Shown here: positions 3,262 through 62,300 of the stretch, piece after piece | How positions within the stretch are numbered: position 1 is the first letter of the stretch | Layout: each line of letters opens with the position of its first letter | Assembly (NCBI GenBank): GCA_934045905.1 | Contig: OW203771.1 | Location: 2,976,001-3,040,000 of the forward strand | DNA from: Leuctra nigra | Lineage: Eukaryota > Arthropoda > Insecta > Plecoptera > Leuctridae | Length of the DNA: 64,000 nt | Direction: 5' to 3' | Translations under genes and position numbers: made by a program | Notes under the pieces: generated by a model | Told to the model about the DNA's origin: nothing | What the model saw: only the letters and a program-made list of their open reading frames with translations | The model's database searches: none

Positions 3262-5040
3262 TAATTAATTAATTTATTTATTTATTGACAACGGGACCCA
3301 AGGGTCCCACAAGTGCAATACAATAAAAACACATTAAAAACAACATACTTACACAACAATAAAATCAGACTTAAAGTTCAAACAAAACAAGCAATGTATC
3401 AGAGAAATAGGTATCACATTATCACAATATTATATCACATGCCCCGACTAGATCTACAATAACGGCTTTAAAAATATCCAATGAACAGTTATTTATATCA
3501 ATTCTATCTTGAGGTAAAGTGTTAAAAGTTGAAAGAATTCTATTGATACACGAATATTTAAAAACATTAATGCGACTTCGACATGGGACAAATACATCTT
3601 TGTTTCGTGATTTACTTGGAACCCGAAAATTAATCAATTCTAAAAGTCTGTCGTCATAATAACTATTAACAATTTTATACAAGAAAAGTAAGTCAGTTAC
3701 AGTTCGCCTTTGGGCTAGGGTCGTTAAATTAAAATTCCTACAACTATCAAGATAATCCATACGGTGATATGGCACATGCGATTTGAAACACATTAACTTC
3801 ATAAATCTTTGTTGTACACTTTCAACACAGCTTGCATGATGGACGTGTGAGCCATTAGGGTTCCAAATGACTGTGGCGTACTCAACTTGAGGCCTCACAA
3901 GCGATACATACATACATCGAAGGGTTGATGACTTCAAGTCTTTTAGGCAGTTACGCTTGATGAACCCGAGCTGTTTAAAGGCCCTCGGAACAATGTTGCC
4001 AACGTGCTTATTATATGTGAGATCGCTGGAGACAGTCACCCCAAGATCACGAATGTGTTGCACTCTTGCCAACTGCCGACCATTAAGGTGATAGTCATGA
4101 ATACTAAAATTTTTCCTGTTTGTAAAAGTTAGAACACTACATTTATTAAAATTAAGATCAAGTTTCCACGTGTGGCACCAATGAGAAAGTGACAGAATAT
4201 CACTTTGAAGAAGATCGGAATCGGACGGCTCAAGGATGGGACGAAATAACTTTAAGTCGTCAGCATATAAAAGAGATTCTGAGTGTCTGATGCAGTCAGG
4301 AAGGTCATTTATGAACAATACAAATAGTAGAGGTCCCAAGATGGACCCCTGCGGCACACCGGAAGTAACCTCCACCGGTAAAGAAGAACCTGAATTGACC
4401 CTGACAGTTTGAGCCCGATGCTTAAGTAACTTGTGAATAAATCATGAAGCTTTCCACAAATTCCGAAACTTTTTAGTTTATATAGCAGAAGAGCATGGTC
4501 AACACTATCGAAGGCACACGACAAATCTGTGTAAATTGAGTCCACCTGTATTCTGCTGTTCATATTTCGCGCTATGTAATCAGTATACGCTGCCAGGTTC
4601 GTTACAGTAGACCGACGTTTCACAAAACCATGCTGTTCAGGGGCAATGCTGGAGGCAACATGGGCATAAACTCTTTTGTGTAAAAGACCCTCAAACACCT
4701 TAGAGATGATGGGAAGGAGAGATATTGGTCTATAGTTAGTTATCAAAGAACGACTACCCTTCTTTAACACAGGTGTCACAAGAGCAGTCTTCCAGCATGT
4801 TGGAAAGGCACCTGACCGGACTGCATGATTGAAAATATCCGCCAACGACCGAGAAATTACTGACCGACAATATTTGAGCATTGACACAGGAATGTTATCG
4901 GACCCTGGAGATTTTCCGTTTTTCAACCCTTTAAGGAAATGTTCGACCTCCGGTGCAGAAAAATGCACCGTTGACAAGTTATTATAGGTTTGTTCAGAAA
5001 CAGAGGGAAGATTATTTCCCAGCAATGAAACAGGAAGGAA
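3262..5040 (-). mobile_element. 5'-truncated non-LTR retrotransposon (reverse transcriptase fragment)
   Basis: Two overlapping minus-strand frames (4309-5025 and 3422-4375) encode one broken reverse transcriptase. The first frame shows NGKSPGSDNIP, NYRPISLLPIISKVFE and the D-containing motif A region (TDLSCAFDSVDH). The second shows GVPQGSILGPLLF (motif B) and the catalytic YADD (motif C), then a C-terminal region. A frameshift and stop near 4375-4440 separate them. No endonuclease domain is present, so the 5' end is truncated at about 5040. The 3' end carries a tail of TTTA/TAAT units at 3262-3287, typical of LINE insertion. The copy is dead. Clade (jockey/CR1-like) is not certain. Confidence 0.88.
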
Positions 5041-15344: not shown

Positions 15345-17562
15345 ATGGGGTTGTTCACGCAAAACTATTGTAGATGGCGCTGCTGTTCTAATCGTCCGGG
15401 AGAGAGCCAATCAAAATGCATCTAGCGGAATGGAAGGTTTTTAAACCTTGGCGGGAATTTGATTCAGAGATCTTGGATTCAGAGACCAACCAATCAGAGA
15501 GAGGCACCTCCAATGCCGCTAGCGCTGCGAGTGAGACTGCTGTGTAGTATTTCTGGACGTCAGTAAGGCGTTCGATAACATCGGCCACGAACACATCAAT
15601 GCTTGCTTATCTAATCTTCCAATCCCCGCAGCACTCAGAGAGACAATTCTAGCATTAACTTTTCAAAACTCCGTTCAAATAGAAGCAAACAGATCGAAAT
15701 CCTCAAAAATCCAAATAAAAAGGGGAGTACCCCAAGGTGCCCCATTATCACCCACGCTGTTCAATCTGTCAATTGACCACATTATCAAAGAGCTCACGGA
15801 GAAGACGGTGTCTAAGGAGTATGGCTATTCACTAGCGGATGACCTGGAGTCCCTATCTGCAGTTGGCTTTGCAGACGATCTTGCACTCATCGGTAACAAC
15901 ACCAACTCAGCCTCTGAGCTCTCATCGATGGCTGAAAGGGGTCTACGAGAAATTGGCCTTGCAGTAAACACCGCGAAGAGTAGTGGAATCAACATCAAGA
16001 GTGGAGAATTATCTCAAGAGGCTATCGTTACCACAGAAGGTTCTACTATATCAACGATAGGCGATAGTGAACGAATACGGTACCTGGGAATCGACTTCAA
16101 CAAATCAATAGTTATTAATAAAGGAAAGATAATTGATGATCTACGCTCTGACCTATCAAAACTAACATCTTCTGATCTCTTGAAACCCGATCAAAAACTA
16201 AACATCCTTAACCAATTTGTCTGGCCTAAACTTATCTATCCCCTTCAATGCGCACCGATACCTCAGCTTTCTACGAAATTCCTAGAAGACATCGATATGA
16301 TCATGCGTAGCGCAGTGAAAGAGATCATCGGGCTACCTGGCGACACTCCAACAGCTTTCATATACGCTCCGAGGAAATTTCGTGGACTAGGCATAATGCG
16401 GGCAACCTGGGAGGCACACGTACAGCACTTCAACATATGTAAAAAGTTGATGACAGTCGAAGACAGATTGATTGACGTGGTTCGAGACCTTCCAGCTGAA
16501 AAGACAAAGTGTATTGCTGACCTTGGCCTTGCACTCGATGCTACCGATGAGCGTGTCTCCGGTCGATCTCTACGTGATGCCCTGCGGCTGTCAGCTTTCA
16601 ACGATTGGGCGAAGCTTCCTCAGAAAGGCAAAGGGGTTGGAATGTACGCAGAAACTCCACGATCAAACAAATGGGTGTACGCGAAGAAAGGTCTATCATC
16701 ATCTGAATGGACAAACTCCATCAAAATGTCCTGCAACGTAGCAGCAGTCCGTGCAGTCCCCGGCAGATCACCCAACACTAACCGTTGTCGTAATATAAAC
16801 TGCAACGAGATCGAAACAATTGCACATGTGTTGGGGAAATGCAACAAGGGAGAACTGTTACGGAACACACGCCACCATGCTGTTCGGACAACCATTGCAG
16901 ACGCATTTCGTCGACAGAAGCGCTGGGAAGTACACGAGGAAGTTTCATGTATTGCAGCTGATGGATCGACACGTCGAGCGGACATTATAGCCATAAGATC
17001 TGACAGGAAGCAAGCACTGATCTTGGATCCCACCATCCGATTCGAGCAAGGTGAAAAACACGCTGAGGACGTTGATGAAGAAAAGAAAAGGATCTACGAG
17101 CCATGCATTGAAGATCTTGCAAGACGCTACAAAGTTCCAGCTGAAAACTGGGAAGTCATTGGCCTCCTCGTAGGAGCAAGAGCAGCAATCCCATCTTTCT
17201 TCACGGCCTTTCTCAAACGATTTTCGGTTCCCCTCAGTACTTTAGATGTAATAGTTCCCTCAGTCCTCAAACACTCAATCTCCATCCTACACAACCACCT
17301 CTACAATAATTAGTAAATATACACCTTTAGTAATAGTTAGGTTAGGATAGACGTTTAGTTTAGATATTATGTATCTCTGTATAAAACATGTCAAAAAGTA
17401 AATGTAAGCATAAAAAGTAACAATGTAACCATAGCATATCTTCTTAGTCCTATTATTATACAATTGTAAATTTTATTGATTAGTACGCTAGACCTGAATG
17501 GTCAACCATGTATGTTGGAAAGCCGTCAATAAATATGATTTTCTCTCAGTGAACAACCCCAT
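15345..17562. mobile_element. TIR-bounded MITE split by a LINE insertion
   Basis: The left end ATGGGGTTGTTCA (15345) and right end TGAACAACCCCAT (17562) are inverted repeats. The left 195 bp match the reverse complement of the intact 217-bp element at 17645-17861 nearly base for base. About 2 kb of LINE sequence sits near its right end, and the last 16 bp (CAGTGAACAACCCCAT) resume after the LINE 3' end. The arrangement reads as a LINE inserted into a MITE. Confidence 0.85.
15538..17546 (+). mobile_element. 5'-truncated RLE-class LINE (R2/R4-like) with intact C-terminal frame
   Basis: A single frame is open from about 15541 to the stop at 17313. It begins directly at reverse transcriptase motif A (FLDVSKAFDN), followed by GVPQGAPLSP (motif B) and FADDLALIG (motif C). 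Further on is a zinc-knuckle-like C-x4-C-x7-H-x4-C near 16796-16845, then a restriction-like endonuclease region (RRADIIAIRSDRKQALILD) at about 16970-17040. That order (RT, CCHC, RLE) is characteristic of the R2/R4/NeSL group of non-LTR elements. The N-terminal part is missing. A polyadenylation-like AATAAA lies at about 17530, close to the 3' junction. The intact long frame suggests recent insertion. Confidence 0.88.
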
Positions 17563-27560: not shown

Positions 27561-30500
27561 TCAATTAAAGAAGAAGAACCGTCGTGGAGGTAATGTATGC
27601 CGTGAGGATGTCGTCCAGGCCGTCTTGATCATGTCCGCCGCCTTCTCCCCGATCATGTAGGCGGGGGCGTTGGTGTGCGCGGCGAGGTTGACGGGGAGGA
27701 TGGAGGCGTCGGCCACACGCAGTCCCACGACGCCGCGGACCCGCAGCTCGGGGTCAACCACGGCGCTGGGGTCGCTGGCAGGACCCATCTTACAGGTCCC
27801 GATCTAGAACAAGAGCAGAGCTGTAGGGAGGGCGTTGTGCAATAGGATGGAGGCGTCAGCAGTCCTAGTACACCGCTCACACGGGGTCCACCACGGCGCT
27901 GGGGTCGCTGGCAGGACCCATCTTACAGGTCCCGATCTAGAACAAGAGCAGAGCTGTAGGGAGGGCGTTGTGCAATAGGATGGAGGCGTCAGCAGTCCTA
28001 GTACACCGCGCACAAGGGGTCAACTACGGCGCTGGGGTTGCTGGCAGGACCCATCTTACAGGTCCCGATCTAGAACAAGAGCAGAGCTGTGGGGAGGGCG
28101 TTGTGCAATAGGATGGAGGCGTCAGCAGTCCTAGTACACCGCTCACACGGGGTCAACCACGGCGCTGGGGTTGCTGGCAGGACCCATGTTACAGGTCCCG
28201 ATCTAGTACAAGAGCAGAGCTGTAGGGAGGGCGTTGTGCACTAGGATGGAGGCGTCAGCAGTCCTAGTACACCGCTGGGGTCGCTGGCAGGACCCATCTT
28301 ACAGGTTCCGATCTAGAACAAGAGCAGAGCTGTAGGGAGGGCGTTGTGCAATAGGATGGAGGCGTCAGCAGTCCTAGTACACCGCTCATACGGGGTCTAC
28401 CACGGCGCTGGGGTCGCTGTCAGGACCCATCTTACAGGTCCCGATCTAGAACAAGAGCAGAGCTGTAGGGAGGGCGTTGTGCAATAGGATGGAGGCGTCA
28501 GCAGTCCTAGTACACCGCGCACACGGGGTCAACCGCAGCGCTGGGGTCGCTGGCAGAACCCATCTTACAGGTCCCGATCTAGAACAAGAGCAGAGCTGTA
28601 GGGAGGGCGTTGTACAATATAGGATGGAGGCGGTGAAGAACTATCTGGAAGGAACTACTCTCATCGTGTGTGTGGGGGGGGGGGCATGTATTTCGAAAAT
28701 AATCAATTTAAGAGTAATTCTGTGATGCTCAAGTTACAATTGAAACAACTTCGTTATTGCTCCAGGGTGATTTCTTTAGAATTTAAACAATTTATAGGTA
28801 CGTGATTCTGAGACGCTAAGTTTATTTATGTAAGGTGAATGGGGGCGGGGGTGGGGGGGGTCAGACTTCTCTAGTGAAGGGGATAAGCCTATGGTGACAT
28901 GGAGGGGCAAGGGGGGTGGGGCGCTTGCCCCTCCCCCTTGCCCCCCCCCCCCCCCCCCCGGATGTAAAGAAATCCTAAAATTTGTGTAGTGTTTTATAGT
29001 GGAGTTTTTCTCTCTATACCTAAGTCGGCAAACGCGGTATCCAGTCAAAGGCCATTCATCCATTGTCAATGGCTCAAAAACATGACATTTTCTAACAAGC
29101 TACAGGCTCGGCTACAGGCCTTGTTTTATGATCTCCAAATCCCAACTTTCCCCTGTTGTCAAATATGGTCAAATGTTTCTTAAAATATGGAAAGGGGAAG
29201 GACATCTTTCTAAACCTCTCAAATGTGTGGTATTTGGCATCAATGCACAGTTGTAAAAATCGCCCTCCCTGCGCCTGACTTGATACCTGGCTCATCTCTA
29301 TAAATTTACAACCTGCCAAAACAAACACTTGTTCCTAGTCAAGCTCCATTGTGCAAATTCTGAGTGGAAATCAATGGAAACTTTCAAATAGGTATAGAGA
29401 GAAAAACTCAACTATACCATGGTTTTATGTAGGTATGTAGTTTCATAAAAAAACCGGGGTTTTCCCTGCTTTGCCCCCCCTGGCAGAAATCCTGCGAACG
29501 CCCATGTATGGTGATGAAGGCATTAGACTCCAAGTTGAACGAAAACACGAATATACCTCTTAGTCTTGAACCTCCTGTGTTAAATTACACCGTAGTTAAC
29601 TCACTTGATGGTTGGTTGCGGCGGACAAGTGTCTGACCGCGCACGCCCAGTACTCGTCACTGCCGAACACGTGGTCCGTGCACCCCGGCAGCGGCACGTC
29701 GTGGAGGGTGGCGCCGAACTTCTGGAATGCCGGCGTCGCCGCCAGACGCCGCACCAGCTTGACGCCCTCGACGACGACGGCGACGTCGCGCGGGTCGGAC
29801 AGGAGGTTGGCGTGGAAGAGGGGAGGTGTCAGAGGGTGCTTGTTGGCGAGCATCACGCGGCCGACGCTACGGGGGCGCAACACGATCGGCCAGATCGTGA
29901 ACGAGTCTCTGTAGTCCACGGGTCTGGGGAAATGTAGGTAGATGACAATCAAAACAACATACTTCATTTAGTTCATTTCTGTTCTTAGCTTTATACAAGT
30001 TACTGACGCTGATCAGAAATTACATTTAACTCTTTAAATCTTCGCACCAAGTTAGATAAAATTGTATCGGTATAGGAAGATGAGCATGAACGTCCTAAAA
30101 AGGGGCGGTGGTGATAAGAGAGGGTTACATTTTACTGAATTTACTACTGAAATTATTCAAAGCGGAAGAAAAATGGAAAATGATACAATATGAAAGGAAT
30201 CGACAAGATTTGTGTAGTCTTTCGTATGTTGTCAGCCATATTTGGTGACTGCCAGATTTGTTTTTGCTGAAATTTGAAATTGGTATGCAACATTGTTGCT
30301 CATTTCCATGAAAGAAGGAAAGTGTTGAAAACGGAAAAAATGTTATCTAGGTACTTGCTTACTATTATATTTAATTTTATGACAATTCAGCAGAATCTAA
30401 AAAAATACATTTTTTACTTATAAATAAAGTTTCACTTTCCCTGGGATATTTCATGGGGTTCACGCATGCTAAAACGCAGTCATAAGTTCAAACACAATTC

Positions 30501-33500
30501 GAGAAATTCTTCAAAATAACAGTAATGTGTGTACCGCCACCTACTAGATCTTTCCCGCCTCTCCTCCAACAGGGAGGGGAGGGGGAGGAAGAAATATCTA
30601 GTAGGTGGCGGTGTGTACAATATTTCAGATCATTTGGTTGACAGGTCACATGATGTGCTGTTCACCTGTGCTGTACAACTGACCTGTACACAGTCTCGTA
30701 GACCTCGTCAGAGATCCTATTAATCTTCTTCGTGACGCCGCCTCCGTCAGTGTTCACCCCGCCAGTGATGTACAACAACTCCAGATCGGGCCTCTCGTCC
30801 TCGGCGAACCTCGTGCGGAGGTAGGCGACGGCTTCGGGTCCACCCGGCATCGTCAGAGGACCGCCTCCGTGGATGAGGAAGTCTCCGAGGAAGTTGGGCC
30901 GTCTCAGCAGCGACCTCGGAGTGAAGGGGACAGTGTAGTTGACGAGGAACATCGCCCCCGTGAAGCCGTCGTGGTTGCGGAGGTTGTAGCCGACAGGCAG
31001 GTCGACGAGTACGTCGATGTCTGGGGATGAGAAACAATAAGAGTGAACATTGGGCATTAATTTCTTCACTCACTACTTTCAATCTATTCTCCCCGGAGAT
31101 AATATGCACTGTGTTTGTCATTCATGTGAAGATTGTATAATTTGTAATTACTGAGTATTGAGTAAGTTTATTGAAACTAAAGGTACGTTTACAGCTCAGC
31201 GTTCGTTCGACGTTCGGCGCTCAGCGCTGATGATGAACATGGTTTATCTTTTGACCTTGAACGCCAGCGCTCGGGCGCTCGGTGTTGGCCAATCAGGAGG
31301 CTCAACGGCGAGCGCTGAGCGCCGAACGTCGAACGAACGACGTGCTTTCCACATCTTCCATATTCAATATAAAAGTTATCAACCTATGTCCTATATTGTA
31401 CATTTTGTTATCAATTGTATTGTTTTATTTCCCATTTTTCTTCACAATTTTTTCTTCACTAATTGATTACCTACTCATGGGTAAACAATCTCAAATTTTG
31501 AACGCCGACATCACCACCTCCTTGACGGCGACATAGTGCTCGTCCTAGTACACTCACCCATCTCCTTGAGATGATCCTTGGGTCCAATACCGGACAGCAT
31601 GAGCACCTGCGGCGACTGCAACGTCCCCGCCAACACCACCACCTCCTTGACGGCGACGTAGTGCTCGTCCTAGTACACTCACCCATGTCCTTGAGATGAT
31701 CCTTGGGTCCAATACCGGACAGCATGAGCAGCTGCGGCGACTGCAACGTCCCCGCCGACACCACCACCTCCTTGACGACGGCGACGTAGTGCTGTCTCCC
31801 GCGCTTGATGAACTCCACGCCGCGCACCTGCCGCGACGCAGGGTCGATCACCACGCGGGTCACGTGACTGGCCATGCTGACGTGGAGGTTGTTGCGCGCG
31901 CATTGGCTGCGCAGGAACGCCTTGGAGGAGCTGAGGCGCGTGCCATTGCGCATGTTCACCTGATCACGTGGAACAGTGACGTTTCAATTGCAGCTCTTTT
32001 AGGAAGGGTACAGGGGAAGAACGCTTTAAGTCACATTCGGTTTAATGTTGAAAGTACCTAACTATCTTCCATACAGACCTATGTTTCATTTGCTTCTTTC
32101 AAGTCTTAGTGGAAATATTTTCTAAAAGCTGAGGGAATATTCTGAAAGTTCATAAAAGTCACTGCAAAATTAACTTATTTTTTTCCAAAAATGGACTCAT
32201 AGCGTTATTTCCCTGTACCCTTCAGGTCCATCGATCAATATGACAAAAATATACAAAATATGTTTTTTTAAATCACCATTTCAAACAGGTTTTTTATAAC
32301 AGTTCAACTGTACTGTGGACTTGTAGTATATAAGTCTTACAGTCTCTTGTAGTTTGCAACTCCTGCCCAATGATTAGCTTTTTAATGTCTCAGAGAATGG
32401 ACAAAACTTGAATATGTGAAAAAAAATCGAAAAAAATTAATTAGAGCCTAAACATTACATAATTTTACATGGCTGATGGGAAACCAACTCAATGTATCTC
32501 AGATAAAAAAATCGAGTACCTAATTAGGGAAGTCTCCTAATTTATTCTTAAATTTAAATTAAAAACCAGAGGATAAAAATGATAAATGTCAACACTTGTT
32601 TTCCTTGTCTAGTCCGTCATTTTCATTGTCAAATCTCGCATTGAAATATCGCCTAACATTCAGGCTGGTAAAACGGAGTTGGACAACATGAACGATAATG
32701 ACGTAGACAGCAATGTTATCAGCAACCGGTCTCATCATGATTATACATTGGGTTTATGTAGAGAGCCTAGGTTTATGTGATTCAGTACACGTTTTTGACG
32801 TCAGTTGTCCCTTGGGTCGTTCTTGCGCTCGCGATAAGTGACTCATTTCATTCAGATTCGATTAAAGCTTTGCTACTAGAGTATTAATCCCACAGAATAA
32901 ATTTTTTGATCATCGAGATCAGAAACGTGTATATTTTTAAAAATCCACGTATTTATTTCATTCTACACTAAGAGACTTCCCTATTGTTCTAAAAGTGGTG
33001 AATATCTGAGACCATGAGCAATGGAGTCACTTAATAAGATATTAAAACGTACCGCAACAATACCTGAAGGTAAGCGAATCCCTGTTGCTGCTCCCCATTA
33101 GTGTCTGTGACCTTGAACCACAGCTGCTCCCCCGCCTCCAGGAACGCGGCGGCGAGCGGCGTTCTGAACGGGATGTGTGCGACGTCCAGATAGCCTCCTC
33201 GGGAGTGGTACTTTGAGTCCTGGAGCTCAGGGATCTCGATGTTCTCAGACTTCAGGAAGTACGGGAGAACCTGGAACAAGGGGGAGGGGGGTGTTGAATA
33301 TTGGTAGTTGCATCACCCTCTAACCAATCTTGTTTTGTTTATTTTGTTGGATGGGAAAATGAGGAGAGGTTTTATAAGTATCTTGCCTTGTTCTAATATA
33401 ATAAGTTTCTGATCTTGACAACGTACAATTACTTATGTCATTCTACAACTATTCTACTGACGTCGGAAATACCAAAGATATTTTATCTTTATATTTTCTT

Positions 33501-34961
33501 AAAAGAGTTTCATTAAGGTGTTACCTTCTCGTAGCTCCATCCAGTATTGCCCTCTCTCTCCAACTCATCATAATCCCCTCTGTTTCCTCTGGTATAGAGC
33601 ATGAAGTTGATACTGCTGGTGCCACCTAGCGCCCTGCCTCGAGGATACGGACATCTCTGATCAACCAATCCCAGACAGCCATGTGTCTGCGGCTCAGTCG
33701 AGAAACCCCAGTTGTAGTCCGTCAGCTGGAGGAAGCCGACGGTGAGGGGGACGTCGTTGATGAGCGTCTCGTCCCGTCCTGCCTCCAGGAGGAGCACGTT
33801 CCAGGCGGGGTTCTCGGAGAGGCGGCTGGCGACGACAGAGCCCGCGGTCCCGGCGCCGATGACGATGAAGTCGTAGCTAGAGAGAGAGGGAGAAGATGAG
33901 GACGTCGTTGTAGAGTGTCAAGGAGGTTCCAGGCTGGCGACGACAGAGCCCGCCGTCCCGGCACCGATGACGATGAAGTCGTAGCTAGAGAGAGAGGGAG
34001 AAGATGAGGACGTCGTTGAAGAGTGTCAAGGAGGTTCCAGGCTGGCGACGACAGAGCCCGTTGTCCCGGCGCCGATGACGATGAAGTCGTAGCTAGAGAG
34101 AGAGGGAGAAGATGAGGACGTCGTTGAAGAGTGTCAAGGAGGTTCCAGGCTGGCGACGACAGAGCCCGCTGTCCCGGCGCCGATGACGATGAAGTCGTAG
34201 CTAGAGAGAGAGGGAGAAGATGAGGACGTCGTTGAAGAGTATCAAGGAGGTTCGAAGCTGGCGACGACAGAGCCCGCGGTCCCGGCGCCGATGACGATGA
34301 AGTCGTAGCTAGAGAGAGAGGGAGAAGATGAGGACGTCGTTGAAGATTGTCCCGTCGGTCCTCCTTAAGGTTGGACAGGAGGTAGTACACAGGAGGTTGA
34401 ACATTCATTAAATTCTCAGCTAAACAAATTCACCAACCGCATCTCACCAAATGCATTCGTTCGCAAGTAATTATTTGAGAGTGATATAAAAATTAAGTGC
34501 ATTTACCGTTGAGGAATATTCCTTAAAATGGGAATTTTGCGGTAATGTTTTACAACTAACACTTTTATTACATTTTAGGATATTTTTGTGAATAAAATGA
34601 GGTCGCACGAAATGTGGGCACAATTTTTTAGTTTAAAAACAAAATTTGAGTCTATAAAAATATATCCAAAATTAGATCAAACGTAATATTCAGAAATCGG
34701 GATTAAGGGGAATTTTCCCAATATCCAGATGGGAATATTGGACTTCCATCACGCACACCCCCCGCGCATCACATATCGAGATGATGACGTCACTCACTGG
34801 TCCAGGAGAGTCCGAGGGCTGCTGTCCTTGCATCTGGCCTGCGCGAAGAGTCTGTGCTTCTTGTGCCAGCGTGTCGACGCCTCCCGCAAACTTCCGGGGT
34901 CGTCGTTGAGCCTGTTCAAGACAGCGGCGGCCACGATCAGTGAGAGGGTGAAGTAGAGCAT
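27561..34961 (-). CDS. GMC oxidoreductase, glucose dehydrogenase [FAD, quinone]-like
   Basis: Seven minus-strand exons: 34798-34961, 33525-33876, 33064-33270, 31683-31959, 30684-31020, 29605-29923 and 27561-27803. All GT-AG junctions agree in phase and give 632 codons plus stop, the usual length of insect Gld-like enzymes. Residues 1-16 ([16 protein letters not shown]) form a signal peptide. The FAD-binding GAGTAG is at about 62-67, GMC signature 1 ([20 protein letters not shown]) at 134-153, and signature 2 ([17 protein letters not shown]) at about 309-325. Active-site histidines are expected in NHQIGTCKMG (His 551) and AHTNAP (His 595). The family oxidises an alcohol or sugar with FAD, outside the cell or in the secretory route. 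The substrate cannot be told. Exons are strongly GC-rich against AT-rich introns. Four exon edges are tandemly duplicated (see repeats). Confidence 0.94.
27801..28645. repeat. Tandem array of the exon 7 acceptor, seven copies
   Basis: The junction 'gttctag/ATCGGGACC' (read on the minus strand) recurs at 27801, 27934, 28067, 28200, 28310, 28443 and 28576. The spacing is 133 bp except one 110-bp unit. The copy at 27801 is the real acceptor of exon 7. Each extra unit repeats the first ~55 bp of the exon ([18 protein letters not shown]), then loses part of it and reaches TGA or TAG. Confidence 0.93.
28646..29604. other. GMC intron 6, with G/C-run sequence
   Basis: G runs at 28674-28683 and around 28838-28860, and a long C run at 28943-28959, belong to the scattered G/C-run family ('ggcaaggggggtggggcgcttgcccctccccc'-like block). 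No exon here. Confidence 0.5.
29924..30683. other. GMC intron 5 with a small palindrome
   Basis: A foldback at about 30527-30616 has arms TGTGTACCGCCACCTACTAG and its complement around a CT/GA-rich centre. Otherwise AT-rich, with nothing supported. Confidence 0.55.
31182..31350. mobile_element. GC-rich palindromic MITE in GMC intron 4
   Basis: The arms CGTTCGTTCGACGTTCGGCG and CGCCGAACGTCGAACGAACG are complementary, extended by CTCAGCGCT/AGCGCTGAG. About 170 bp with no coding capacity. Confidence 0.75.
31500..31790. repeat. Tandem duplication of the exon 4 donor (about 2.4 copies)
   Basis: The end of exon 4 with its donor 'ATGG/gtgagtgtac' (true site at 31683) is repeated 125 bp downstream with donor at 31558, and a third partial copy covers 31500-31550. 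The repeated exon part encodes [26 protein letters not shown], that is GMC signature 2. Confidence 0.9.
32525..32984. mobile_element. MITE, AGGGAA-TIR family, copy 1 (GMC intron 3)
   Basis: The ends TAGGGAAGTCTCCTAATTTA and its imperfect complement (AAGAGACTTCCCTA). Related termini occur at 36547-36969 and 59530-59930. No frame. Confidence 0.65.
33871..34365. repeat. Tandem array of the exon 2 acceptor, five copies of 108 bp
   Basis: 'ctctctag/CTACGACTTCATCG' (minus strand) recurs at 33871, 33979, 34087, 34195 and 34303, exactly 108 bp apart. The copy at 33871 continues into the real exon 2. The others carry the FAD-motif coding start ([17 protein letters not shown]) and then jump to intron sequence. 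As 108 is a multiple of three, a long false open frame runs across the array. Confidence 0.94.
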
Positions 34962-35165
34962 GACGTCACCTTGGGGTGGGGATTCATTGGTGTCAGGCGC
35001 ATAGGAACTACATGTGCTGCCTCCAGCAGCCTCCAGGGGTCGTCGTTGAGCCTGTTCAAGACAGCGGCGGCCACGATCAGTGAGAGGGTGAAGTAGAGCA
35101 TGACGTCACCTTGGGGTGGGGATTCATTGGTGTCAGGCGCGTAGGAACTACATGTGCAGGGGGGG
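34896..35165. repeat. Tandem duplication of the GMC start region (2 copies of 140 bp)
   Basis: The segment with the ATG and signal-peptide codons (ATG at 34961) is repeated 140 bp upstream with its own ATG at 35101. The upstream copy codes the same first 22 residues ([16 protein letters not shown]..) then runs out of frame across the real start and stops, since 140 is not a multiple of three. It would act as an overlapping upstream open frame if transcribed. Confidence 0.9.
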
Positions 35166-59328: not shown

Positions 59329-62300
59329 CCATGAAAAGGTGTCCACTGATAAGGGTGCAAAACCTGCTGCCTTCGCAACAAGCGGTTGATTCACTCGAGA
59401 CATCATGATAATCATTGATCTTTTAAATCCTTCTGACGCTTCGAACCAATCACAGCCGTAGACCGCTTCTCTCACTACCTCGCTCTGTAACATCATAAGC
59501 AGGGAGAGAAGAAAATTAACCCTAACAATAGGGAATATGCATACATTTATTAAAAACTATATTCCAAAATAACAACATGTTTGTTCGTAGCACGCTATTT
59601 TCATATTCAAAAGGGTAAATTTTCATTCATAAATATAAAATTGAAAATCAGTTGACATTTTGGCGGGAAAACAGTCCTGTTCCTAACGAAGTGACATCAT
59701 TTTTATCAACCAACAATGATGTTGCCATGATTACAATAAAATATGACATCACTCGTTAGGTAATGTCAGAAACACTATTTTCCAGCCAAAAAGTCCAACA
59801 ATTTAAATGTCATATTTTTTAATGGAAACTTACCCTTTTGAGTTTGTGAATAGTGTGTTTTACCAGCATTTATGTTGTTAATGTGAAAAATTTTACTTTA
59901 ACCTAATTAAAAAACTTTTGCATATTCCCTATTATAGTGAATTTTAAATACACATAAATTAGCACTAGGAAAACGCTCTGTGTAACGCGTTGATGAGCGA
60001 GCACGGACGCGCGCAACACCTCGAACCGAAATTATGTCTATCGAAAATATCATTAAAGGCCAATAATTCTTAAAATTCGTCAGACTTGTAGGTATAAAAA
60101 TCTCCAAATATTCCTGGAGTATTAGTCCCAATAACCATGCAAAGGTTTAAGTTGATCGATTGAACCTTTATGATAAAAATGTTCCTTGTTAATATTCAAA
60201 AATCATAGGATCTATTTAAAAAAAATATACCTGGGACCACTCATATGATAAAAGTGTGTGTACTTACACAGTATTAGACCGATCTGTTGAACGGTCATAT
60301 CAGTTTCATACGTTTGAAAGTTTCTGCTCTAAATACCTTGGAACTATAAAGAGTCGAAGTAGCCGTGATCAACATTTTTGAGTAATTTGACAGCAAACAC
60401 GCAAAATGTCCGTAAAATGTCAAGAACTTTTGGATTTAAACACAGATAAGTCTGAATTTTGTCAAAAATACAGATAATGTTGGTCCCAATGACCATGCCA
60501 AGTTTTAAGTTGATCGGTCATATGGTTCTAGTTTAAATTTCAAAAATCATATGAAAGATTTTTTTTAAATTTTAACCAATGGGAGTATTTGGCTGAAACT
60601 TTGTAAGATTGGGTTCAATGTTGGTTGAAATGACTTGTCAAAATTTCAAATTGATCGGAACAACCAATCAAAAGATAATTTTTTTAAAACTTGAACCAAT
60701 CACGGGATCCCGTTCAAAAACGATCCCAGGGACCTCATAGACTACGTTAGTATGTGTACAAAATTTCAGATCGATTACTTGAGCGGTTTGACCTGGGCTG
60801 TGACCACAAAAAAATAAACAAACAAACAAAAAAAAACACACAGAGAAAGTGCCATAAGAGTACCGTGGTGACGCTCGCTACGCTCGCTCAACTATACTAT
60901 ATTACAAGAAATAGTAGAAATTAGTAGAAATTGAAGGGCAGGCGCGTACCTCCTGTGTTAATTTGTCACAAATCCAGCAATAGACGCCGAGAATCAACGT
61001 AAAGATGGTCAGAATTACAAGTATAATCAATGTGATCATGTCAAACGTCGGAACCTAGTTCACAAGAGACACAAATACAATTTGTTAATAAGTTGAAATA
61101 TGTCGGTGTCTGCAAAAAGAGGTCAAAATACTTACCAATGTTAAAGAGACAACGGCCAAAGAACATGAAATAAGTCCGAAAAGAATGGCGCTTATCATTA
61201 TTGGTTGGTACAGGAGGATCCCAGCATAGAATTCCCTGAAAAAGGTATATTATATTAAATATAAATGAGGCATTCTTATATGGATTCATTGAGATGCCCT
61301 TTGCTGATAAACATGAAATAAACCATTGCTCGAAAACTCTTACCTGATCAGCTCCTGATGATGCTGGATGCATTCCTTCAGACGTCTCTCCATCTCCAAG
61401 TCAAGCTCACGCTTCTCTTCATCAGCTTCGTATCTGATTGGATACCGATGCGCTCCAATCACCTTCCATGGCCGCGTTCTTTCATAAGATTCTATTGTGA
61501 CATGTATTCTTCCTTGACTTAACTCCATCACACCTCGCTCAGCTGGTGTTCGACTGTTCTTAGTCTTCTGGTGAAGCTTGGCCATGATGTGCTCGAGACT
61601 GTCCGCTCCTCCTTGACTTAACTCCATCACACCTCGCTCAGCTGGTGTTCGACTGTTCTCAGTCTTCTGGCGGCGCTTGGCCATGATGTGCTCGTGACTG
61701 TCAGCTCCTCCTTGACTGAACTCCATCACACCTCGCTCAGCTGGTGTTCGACTGTACTCAGTCTTCTGGCGATGCTTGGCCTTGATGTGCTCGAGACTGT
61801 CAGCTCCTCCTTGACTTAACTCCATCACACCTCGCTCAGCTGGTGTTCGACTGTTCTCAGTCTTCTGGCGACCCTTGGCCTTGATGTGCTCGAGACTGTC
61901 AGCTCGGATATTCAACAATTTGTCGCAAAGGATTTTGAATTGGCAGAGTATTTGAATAAACCAAGCACCAGCTATTAATTGCACAACGCATGTGAGCAAA
62001 AATGCTCCCACCCAAGATAACACATGAGCCAAAGCTGTTATCTCTTTATTTGGAGAAGCTGTGACATCGTAAGGGTAGTAGCATCTGCAATTATAAATAG
62101 TTCGTGATTAATATGACTTTTGCTGGAAAAGTCTTCAGGTTTTTATAGTTACTTACCCCTGTGTTAGGTCTTCTTGTGTCAAGAAGAAAATGAATGTGGT
62201 GACACCCAGAAACCCAATAAAAATTATTATAACGGGCATTAGATATCTGATCGCATTCTTCGTCAAACTTGTTCTCTTTTGTACCATAATTCGGTATATT

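Follow-up and report, generated by a model that had tools for sequence, protein, structure and literature searches.

A gene of seven exons on the minus strand of a 64,000-nucleotide stretch of the Leuctra nigra (Plecoptera) genome carries four tandem arrays, each of which lies across an edge of its coding sequence; the whole stretch, part of contig OW203771.1, is referred to below as the window. Arrays at the same edges recur with differing copy numbers in paralogous genes whose synonymous divergence is uneven from exon to exon, and arrays of unrelated sequence lie at the edges of other genes of the same assembly. We consider it likely that these arrays are minisatellites of the type known as mirages in lancelets, formed by tandem duplication in GC-rich exons, sorted by a survivorship filter, and reshaped by unequal exchange and gene conversion.

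The gene and its four arrays

Joining the exons at the innermost copy of each array yields an open frame of 632 codons and a stop. The spliced open frame defines the following exons:

34798..34961, minus strand: exon 1, coding part from the inner ATG
33525..33876, minus strand: exon 2
33064..33270, minus strand: exon 3, without an array in the window gene
31683..31959, minus strand: exon 4
30684..31020, minus strand: exon 5, without an array
29605..29923, minus strand: exon 6, without an array
27561..27803, minus strand: exon 7, with the stop codon

Judged by homology over its full length, the product is a GMC oxidoreductase of the insect glucose dehydrogenase-like kind. A database search gave 6832 matches, and the 120 listed are 42-52% identical to the 632-codon query and cover 70-98% of it. 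The listed matches are annotated with PF00732 and PF05199, which are domains of the matches and not of the query, and where named they are arthropod GMC proteins (e.g., glucose dehydrogenases).

The arrays, delimited with Tandem Repeats Finder and sequence landmarks, are distributed as follows:

34896..35157, minus strand: array A, about 2 x 140 base pairs (bp) across the start codon
33824..34351, minus strand: array B, about 5 x 108 bp across the exon 2 acceptor, with five AG acceptors
31503..31793, minus strand: array C, two full copies and a 39-bp stub, period 125, across the exon 4 donor
27749..28632, minus strand: array D, seven acceptors at a spacing of 133 (once 110), across the exon 7 acceptor

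Tandem Repeats Finder assigned periods and copy numbers of 140 x 1.9 to A, 108 x 4.9 to B, and 125 x 2.3 to C, while array D was returned as several overlapping rows (27749-28632) of period 133 with one spacing of 110; scores of the four arrays ranged from 413 to 1332. Together with the 632-codon frame, these rows bear out the central claim of a preliminary description of this DNA, that four tandem arrays lie in one intact gene, and the landmarks and spliced frame agree with its view that the four have differing units and all occupy coding edges. Arrays B, C and D are tandem, minisatellite-like copies across intron-exon boundaries, as set by the spliced frame. Array A lies at the start codon, so that the proposal that every unit spans such a boundary is borne out for B, C and D only.

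The start codons of array A stand at 35101 (outer) and 34961 (inner), and the outer ATG opens a frame different from that of the inner one. In array B the first exon base of each acceptor copy is at 34308, 34200, 34092, 33984 and 33876 (inner), and stops are encountered between copies when the array is read through. Acceptors of array D lie at 28578, 28445, 28312, 28202, 28069, 27936 and 27803 (inner), and donors of array C at 31682 (inner) and 31557; its outermost copy, the stub, lacks a donor. The splice signal, described earlier as kept by every unit, is thus retained in B, D and the full copies of C, but not in that stub. The true copy always lies at the inner edge, as had been noted, but this is the geometry of any tandem duplication laid over an exon edge and not a special feature.

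Paralogs with the same arrays

A protein search of the assembly that contains the window (144 contigs, 536,196,549 bases) gave 76 matches. We grouped the closest multi-exon matches into five further genes, which the search placed as follows:

C10:2.41-2.47 Mb: P1, P2 and P3
C10:14.03 Mb: P4
C4:31.6 Mb: P5

Arrays B and D are present at the same edges in all six genes, the window gene included, and differ in copy number. In the order window gene, P1, P2, P3, P4 and P5, array B has 5, 11, at least 15, 2, 3 and 3 copies, array C has 2, 1, 1, 6, 8 and 3, and array D has 7, 3, 9, 10, 3 and 7. Counts for B and C include the inner copy and all copies spanning at least half a unit, and the count for array B in P2 is a minimum because the analysed piece begins within the array. 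Copy number therefore differs widely among these genes (2-15 in B, 3-10 in D), in a comparison of paralogs and not of alleles. Array C is multiplied in four of the six genes and consists of one copy and a stub in the other two. Since B and D occur in all six genes and C in multiplied or single form likewise, the arrays of the window gene are largely inherited. Unit D has at least 39 matches in the genome, every one of them within the six GMC paralogs, and a dispersed mobile unit was rejected on this ground.

Different arrays lie across exon 1, which was covered in the window gene, P3 (142 x 4.1) and P5 (153 x 2.7), and P4 has an array of 1.9 x 94 bp at the donor of exon 3. The architecture had been described from one gene, but it is not confined to that gene, as the five multi-exon paralogs and unrelated genes with edge arrays show.

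Edge arrays in other genes

A sample of 27 distant loci (L001-L025, L027 and L028; 121,802 bases) contained six arrays with a period of at least 50:

L011, L012: arrays at the stop codon, with one shared unit
L023: array at the last-exon acceptor
L027: array at a donor
L009: array after an acceptor-like site of a putative open frame
L019: array in AT-rich DNA, away from exons

The arrays of L011 and L012 are probably of single origin. A Ly6-like identity of the open frame in L009 was rejected, as no Pfam family was found at an expectation value (E) of up to 1. The distant GMC relatives at L002-L013 differ from the window gene with its seven exons in matching as a single open frame with hardly a break, and are possible retrogenes.

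In the best 30 of 98 P450 matches (112,350 bases), seven distinct arrays had a period of at least 40:

L056, L064: arrays at the stop codon
L067: in-frame array inside coding sequence
L044: two arrays beside or over the ends of a putative exon
L040, L047: arrays at no seen edge

The putative exon of L044 (L044:495-1240) is GC-rich and has arrays on both sides (42 x 5.6 and 85 x 2.9). Finally, three carboxylesterase exons with nearby partial copies were picked from a table of 101 matches; they are counted only for their periods and provide no rate:

L070: 5.9 x 142 at an acceptor
L071, L072: about 4 x 121 at a donor, with a shared unit

In sequence, the edge arrays of these distant GMC, P450 and carboxylesterase genes are unrelated to those of the window. 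Translations and GT/AG signals, from which the edges were read, place arrays at every one of the four kinds of coding edge: the start (window A, P3 and P5), the acceptor (B, D, L023 and L070), the donor (C, L027, L071, L072 and exon 3 of P4), and the stop (L011, L012, L056 and L064).

Anatomy of the units

The unit of arrays B and D is composed of an intron end, an exon start and a linker. The linker of array B resembles sequence further downstream in exon 2 (a 20-column match; 1 of 1000 shuffles was as good), and that of array D resembles sequence further downstream in exon 7 (2 of 1000). In B and D, part of the 'intronic' unit therefore resembles a decayed copy of the exon, and the earlier statement that a unit carries only part of its exon is not supported there. 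For A and C, the linkers had no significant match to the whole coding sequence (29 and 105 of 1000 shuffles). In P5, exon 2 sequence that is absent from most copies of the other genes lies between the two anchored B copies, which fits an older, longer duplication that was trimmed later.

The unit of array C comprises 109 bp of exon end and 16 bp of intron, and is followed by stubs of 30-41 bp. In P1 and P2 the array is a single full exon end plus stub, a state that may represent either its seed or its contraction. The 12-mer GTGTACTAGGAC is common to the linkers of arrays C (window 31667-31682) and D, which are otherwise unrelated; by our arithmetic the chance of such sharing is about 2e-5. 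It is also found in many paralog copies, with one base different in the array C consensus of P5.

Predicted folding of the four units was compared with that of shuffled sequences. Only C folded better (z -2.45), the other three having z of 0.77, 0.78 and 1.00 and four control segments z of 0.27, -1.04, -0.51 and 1.13. DNA secondary structure as a cause was rejected, since three of the four units, like the controls, do not stand out.

Uneven divergence among paralogs

When the window gene is compared with its paralogs, exons and arrays can be aligned, the array stretches being 76-98% identical, mostly above 90% and lowest in A. Apart from short exon flanks, the remaining intron sequence had no match at E 1e-8, in a comparison that covers the introns of P2 and P5 in part. 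Differences at fourfold sites amount to 0-7% in exon 4, 5-7% in exon 7 (P5 left out), 6-14% in exon 3 (P5: 4 of 8 sites), 9-18% in exon 6, 10-38% in exon 2 and 27-44% in exon 5; exon 1, compared in P3 and P5 only, differs at 1 of 7 and 4 of 12 sites. Exon 5 is the most diverged exon at these sites in four of the five comparisons. At the level of overall identity, exon 5 (30684-31020) is 73-82% identical to the paralogs and exon 4 with its array 94-98%.

The contrast between exons 4 and 5 was significant in all five comparisons and that between exons 7 and 5 in all four (Fisher tests, uncorrected for multiple testing). P5, on another contig, differs at 2 of 50 fourfold sites in exon 4 versus 19 of 50 in exon 2 (Fisher 4e-5). 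We read this pattern as gene conversion around C and D. Constraint could be an alternative source of the uneven synonymous divergence: among the five paralogs, the difference of exon 4 reached significance in only one against the array-less exon 6, and in three against exon 2, where array B lies. The fairly uniform state of exon 6, which has no array, calls for caution.

Origin of the arrays

In the explanation that we favor, GC-rich exons of this genome would undergo local tandem duplication of about 60-155 bp, and selection would remove duplications lying wholly inside coding sequence unless the length of their unit is divisible by three. A duplication that straddles a start, acceptor, donor or stop would leave one complete edge on the rest of the exon, and could be tolerated since splicing and translation would ignore it and the transcript could stay correct. 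Unequal exchange may then add units to the arrays that persist or remove them, and gene conversion may homogenize some of these arrays, with the adjoining exon, between dispersed paralogs.

Placement was evaluated with the six arrays of 26 distant-GMC loci, coding segments being taken from tblastn. Four of the six arrays span a GMC coding edge, where random placement expects 6-9% per array (P ~6e-4) and placement matched for GC content (within 0.07) expects 5-11% (P ~2e-4). When coding interiors are also excluded from the GC-matched null, the five GC-rich arrays have expectations of 70, 64, 62, 56 and 31% and the AT-rich array has one of 5%; the observed four of six is then unremarkable (P 0.29). 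GC content and survivorship are therefore enough for these data, and the role of GC-richness raised in the preliminary description is supported. Furthermore, 3 of 16 edge-array periods are divisible by three (the 16 include the putative genes of L009 and L044), as expected if extra copies are untranslated, and so are the periods of the two interior arrays found, 99 at window 61511-61905 and 45 in L067.

Several observations nevertheless argue against this explanation. The null-test sample is small and non-random, its loci having been chosen by exons of few families, and L011 and L012, with their shared unit, are not independent in the edge count. Counting L009 as an edge by eye places five of five GC-rich arrays at edges (P 0.048 under this null). 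The arrays of L019, L040 and L047 lie away from any seen edge. Finally, all 92 unit copies examined retain AG or GT, slightly above the expectation under drift.

A process aimed at exon edges, acting for example via splicing, transcription or an RNA intermediate, would account for units with a tiny intron part, which is GTGAGTGT in L071 and L072 and about 16 bp in L070 and array C. It would also suit the outermost copy of L071 and L072, in which similarity stops exactly at the splice junction and differing introns then start. However, the intron part of the units, read by eye, varies from 8 to more than 40 bp, start and stop edges are hit without splicing, and the null of GC content and survivorship accounts for placement in the small test. 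We regard such a process as unlikely, and the occurrence of arrays in three families not only at splice sites but also at start and stop codons suggests a process that is not about splicing.

Less probable still is selection for decoy splice sites, in which extra acceptors and donors would tune expression by pulling the spliceosome to premature-stop copies. The stops between copies of array B would serve this purpose, and among copies of half a unit or longer AG is kept in 39/39 of B and 32/32 of D and GT in 21/21 of C, the seven shorter stubs of array C being without a splice site. Since 75 of the copies are outer, 3-4 losses would be expected at the unit background rate (our arithmetic). But the copies are related, and perhaps converted from the constrained inner copy, so that these counts are not independent tests. 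Moreover, start and stop edges are not predicted by a splice-specific purpose, copy number varies widely between paralogs, and lancelet mirages are reported in PMC3087553 to leave regular splicing undisturbed. An assembly artefact in GC-rich repeats is very improbable: nothing was found in its favor, and the six genes, in four regions of two contigs (30 and 40 Mb), differ in copy number and carry point differences.

Edge arrays thus occur in the GMC, carboxylesterase and P450 families of a chromosome-scale insect assembly, a genome that would let mutation, selection and conversion be separated by counting. For annotation they carry a warning, as outer copies mimic exons and start codons. In a broader and rather doubtful extension of the favored explanation, the arrays would form a class of mutation found throughout the genome in this lineage of insects and act as recombination anchors that hold exons 4 and 7 near-identical in paralogs of different chromosomes as the rest of the exons and the introns diverge, thereby shaping protein family evolution and being able to seed new introns.

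Other features of the window and assembly

The interior array of the window (61511-61905, minus strand) consists of 4 x 99 bp, in frame within an open frame at 61340-62107. We took this frame to resemble part of an odorant receptor; a Pfam search found no family. Reverse-transcriptase open frames, both with RVT_1, lie at 15535-17313 (plus strand) and 3422-4441 (minus strand), and the former has an 83% identical relative on a 2.4 kb JGI source contig. A full-length COX1 match on a chromosome-size contig (G000:C13:51651552-51652892), besides one on C144, would be either a nuclear mitochondrial copy or a misjoin.

Comparison with known systems

Open-access literature, searched at the level of titles and abstract starts, yielded no insect case, which is weak evidence of absence. 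Rogers-type intron gain likewise involves exon sequence that is duplicated in tandem together with splice signals, and the AG|GT exon end of L071 could serve it. It differs in that array copies are there removed as a new intron, which would be at most a possibility in the insect arrays, and in that array C is without AG at the junction. Paralogs in human segmental duplications contain internal tandem repeats at exon-intron boundaries that are said to form new introns with transcript support (PMC2812944). These resemble the insect arrays as exon-edge minisatellites whose copy number differs between recent paralogs; however, their units average about 30 bp, and their new introns are backed by transcripts, whereas the insect arrays are known from genome sequence.

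The closest likeness is with lancelets, whose mirages are a precedent (PMC3087553, PMC3902484), where the preliminary description knew of no described mechanism aimed at exon edges. Mirages are minisatellite-like tandem duplications across intron-exon boundaries, on the acceptor or donor side (PMC3087553), in Adh3, the globins BflGb6 and BflGb9, and others (PMC3087553), and in PGBD5 (PMC3902484). Units measure 10-72 bp in Adh3 and 150-160 bp in globins, and the authors of PMC3087553 suggest that mirages could be more widespread among cephalochordates and call their mode of origin unclear. Shared features include boundary-spanning units, splice signals carried by many of the copies, copy numbers that vary (in the insect, among paralogs), and homogenization within arrays. 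Lancelet mirages are reported with normal splicing and allelic or somatic instability, whereas the insect arrays are known here from the assembly. Unlike mirages, the insect arrays also occupy start and stop codons, affect up to four edges per gene, and are kept at the same edges in six paralogs. Given the match in anatomy, we place the insect arrays with this known kind, to which they add start and stop edges and an insect host.

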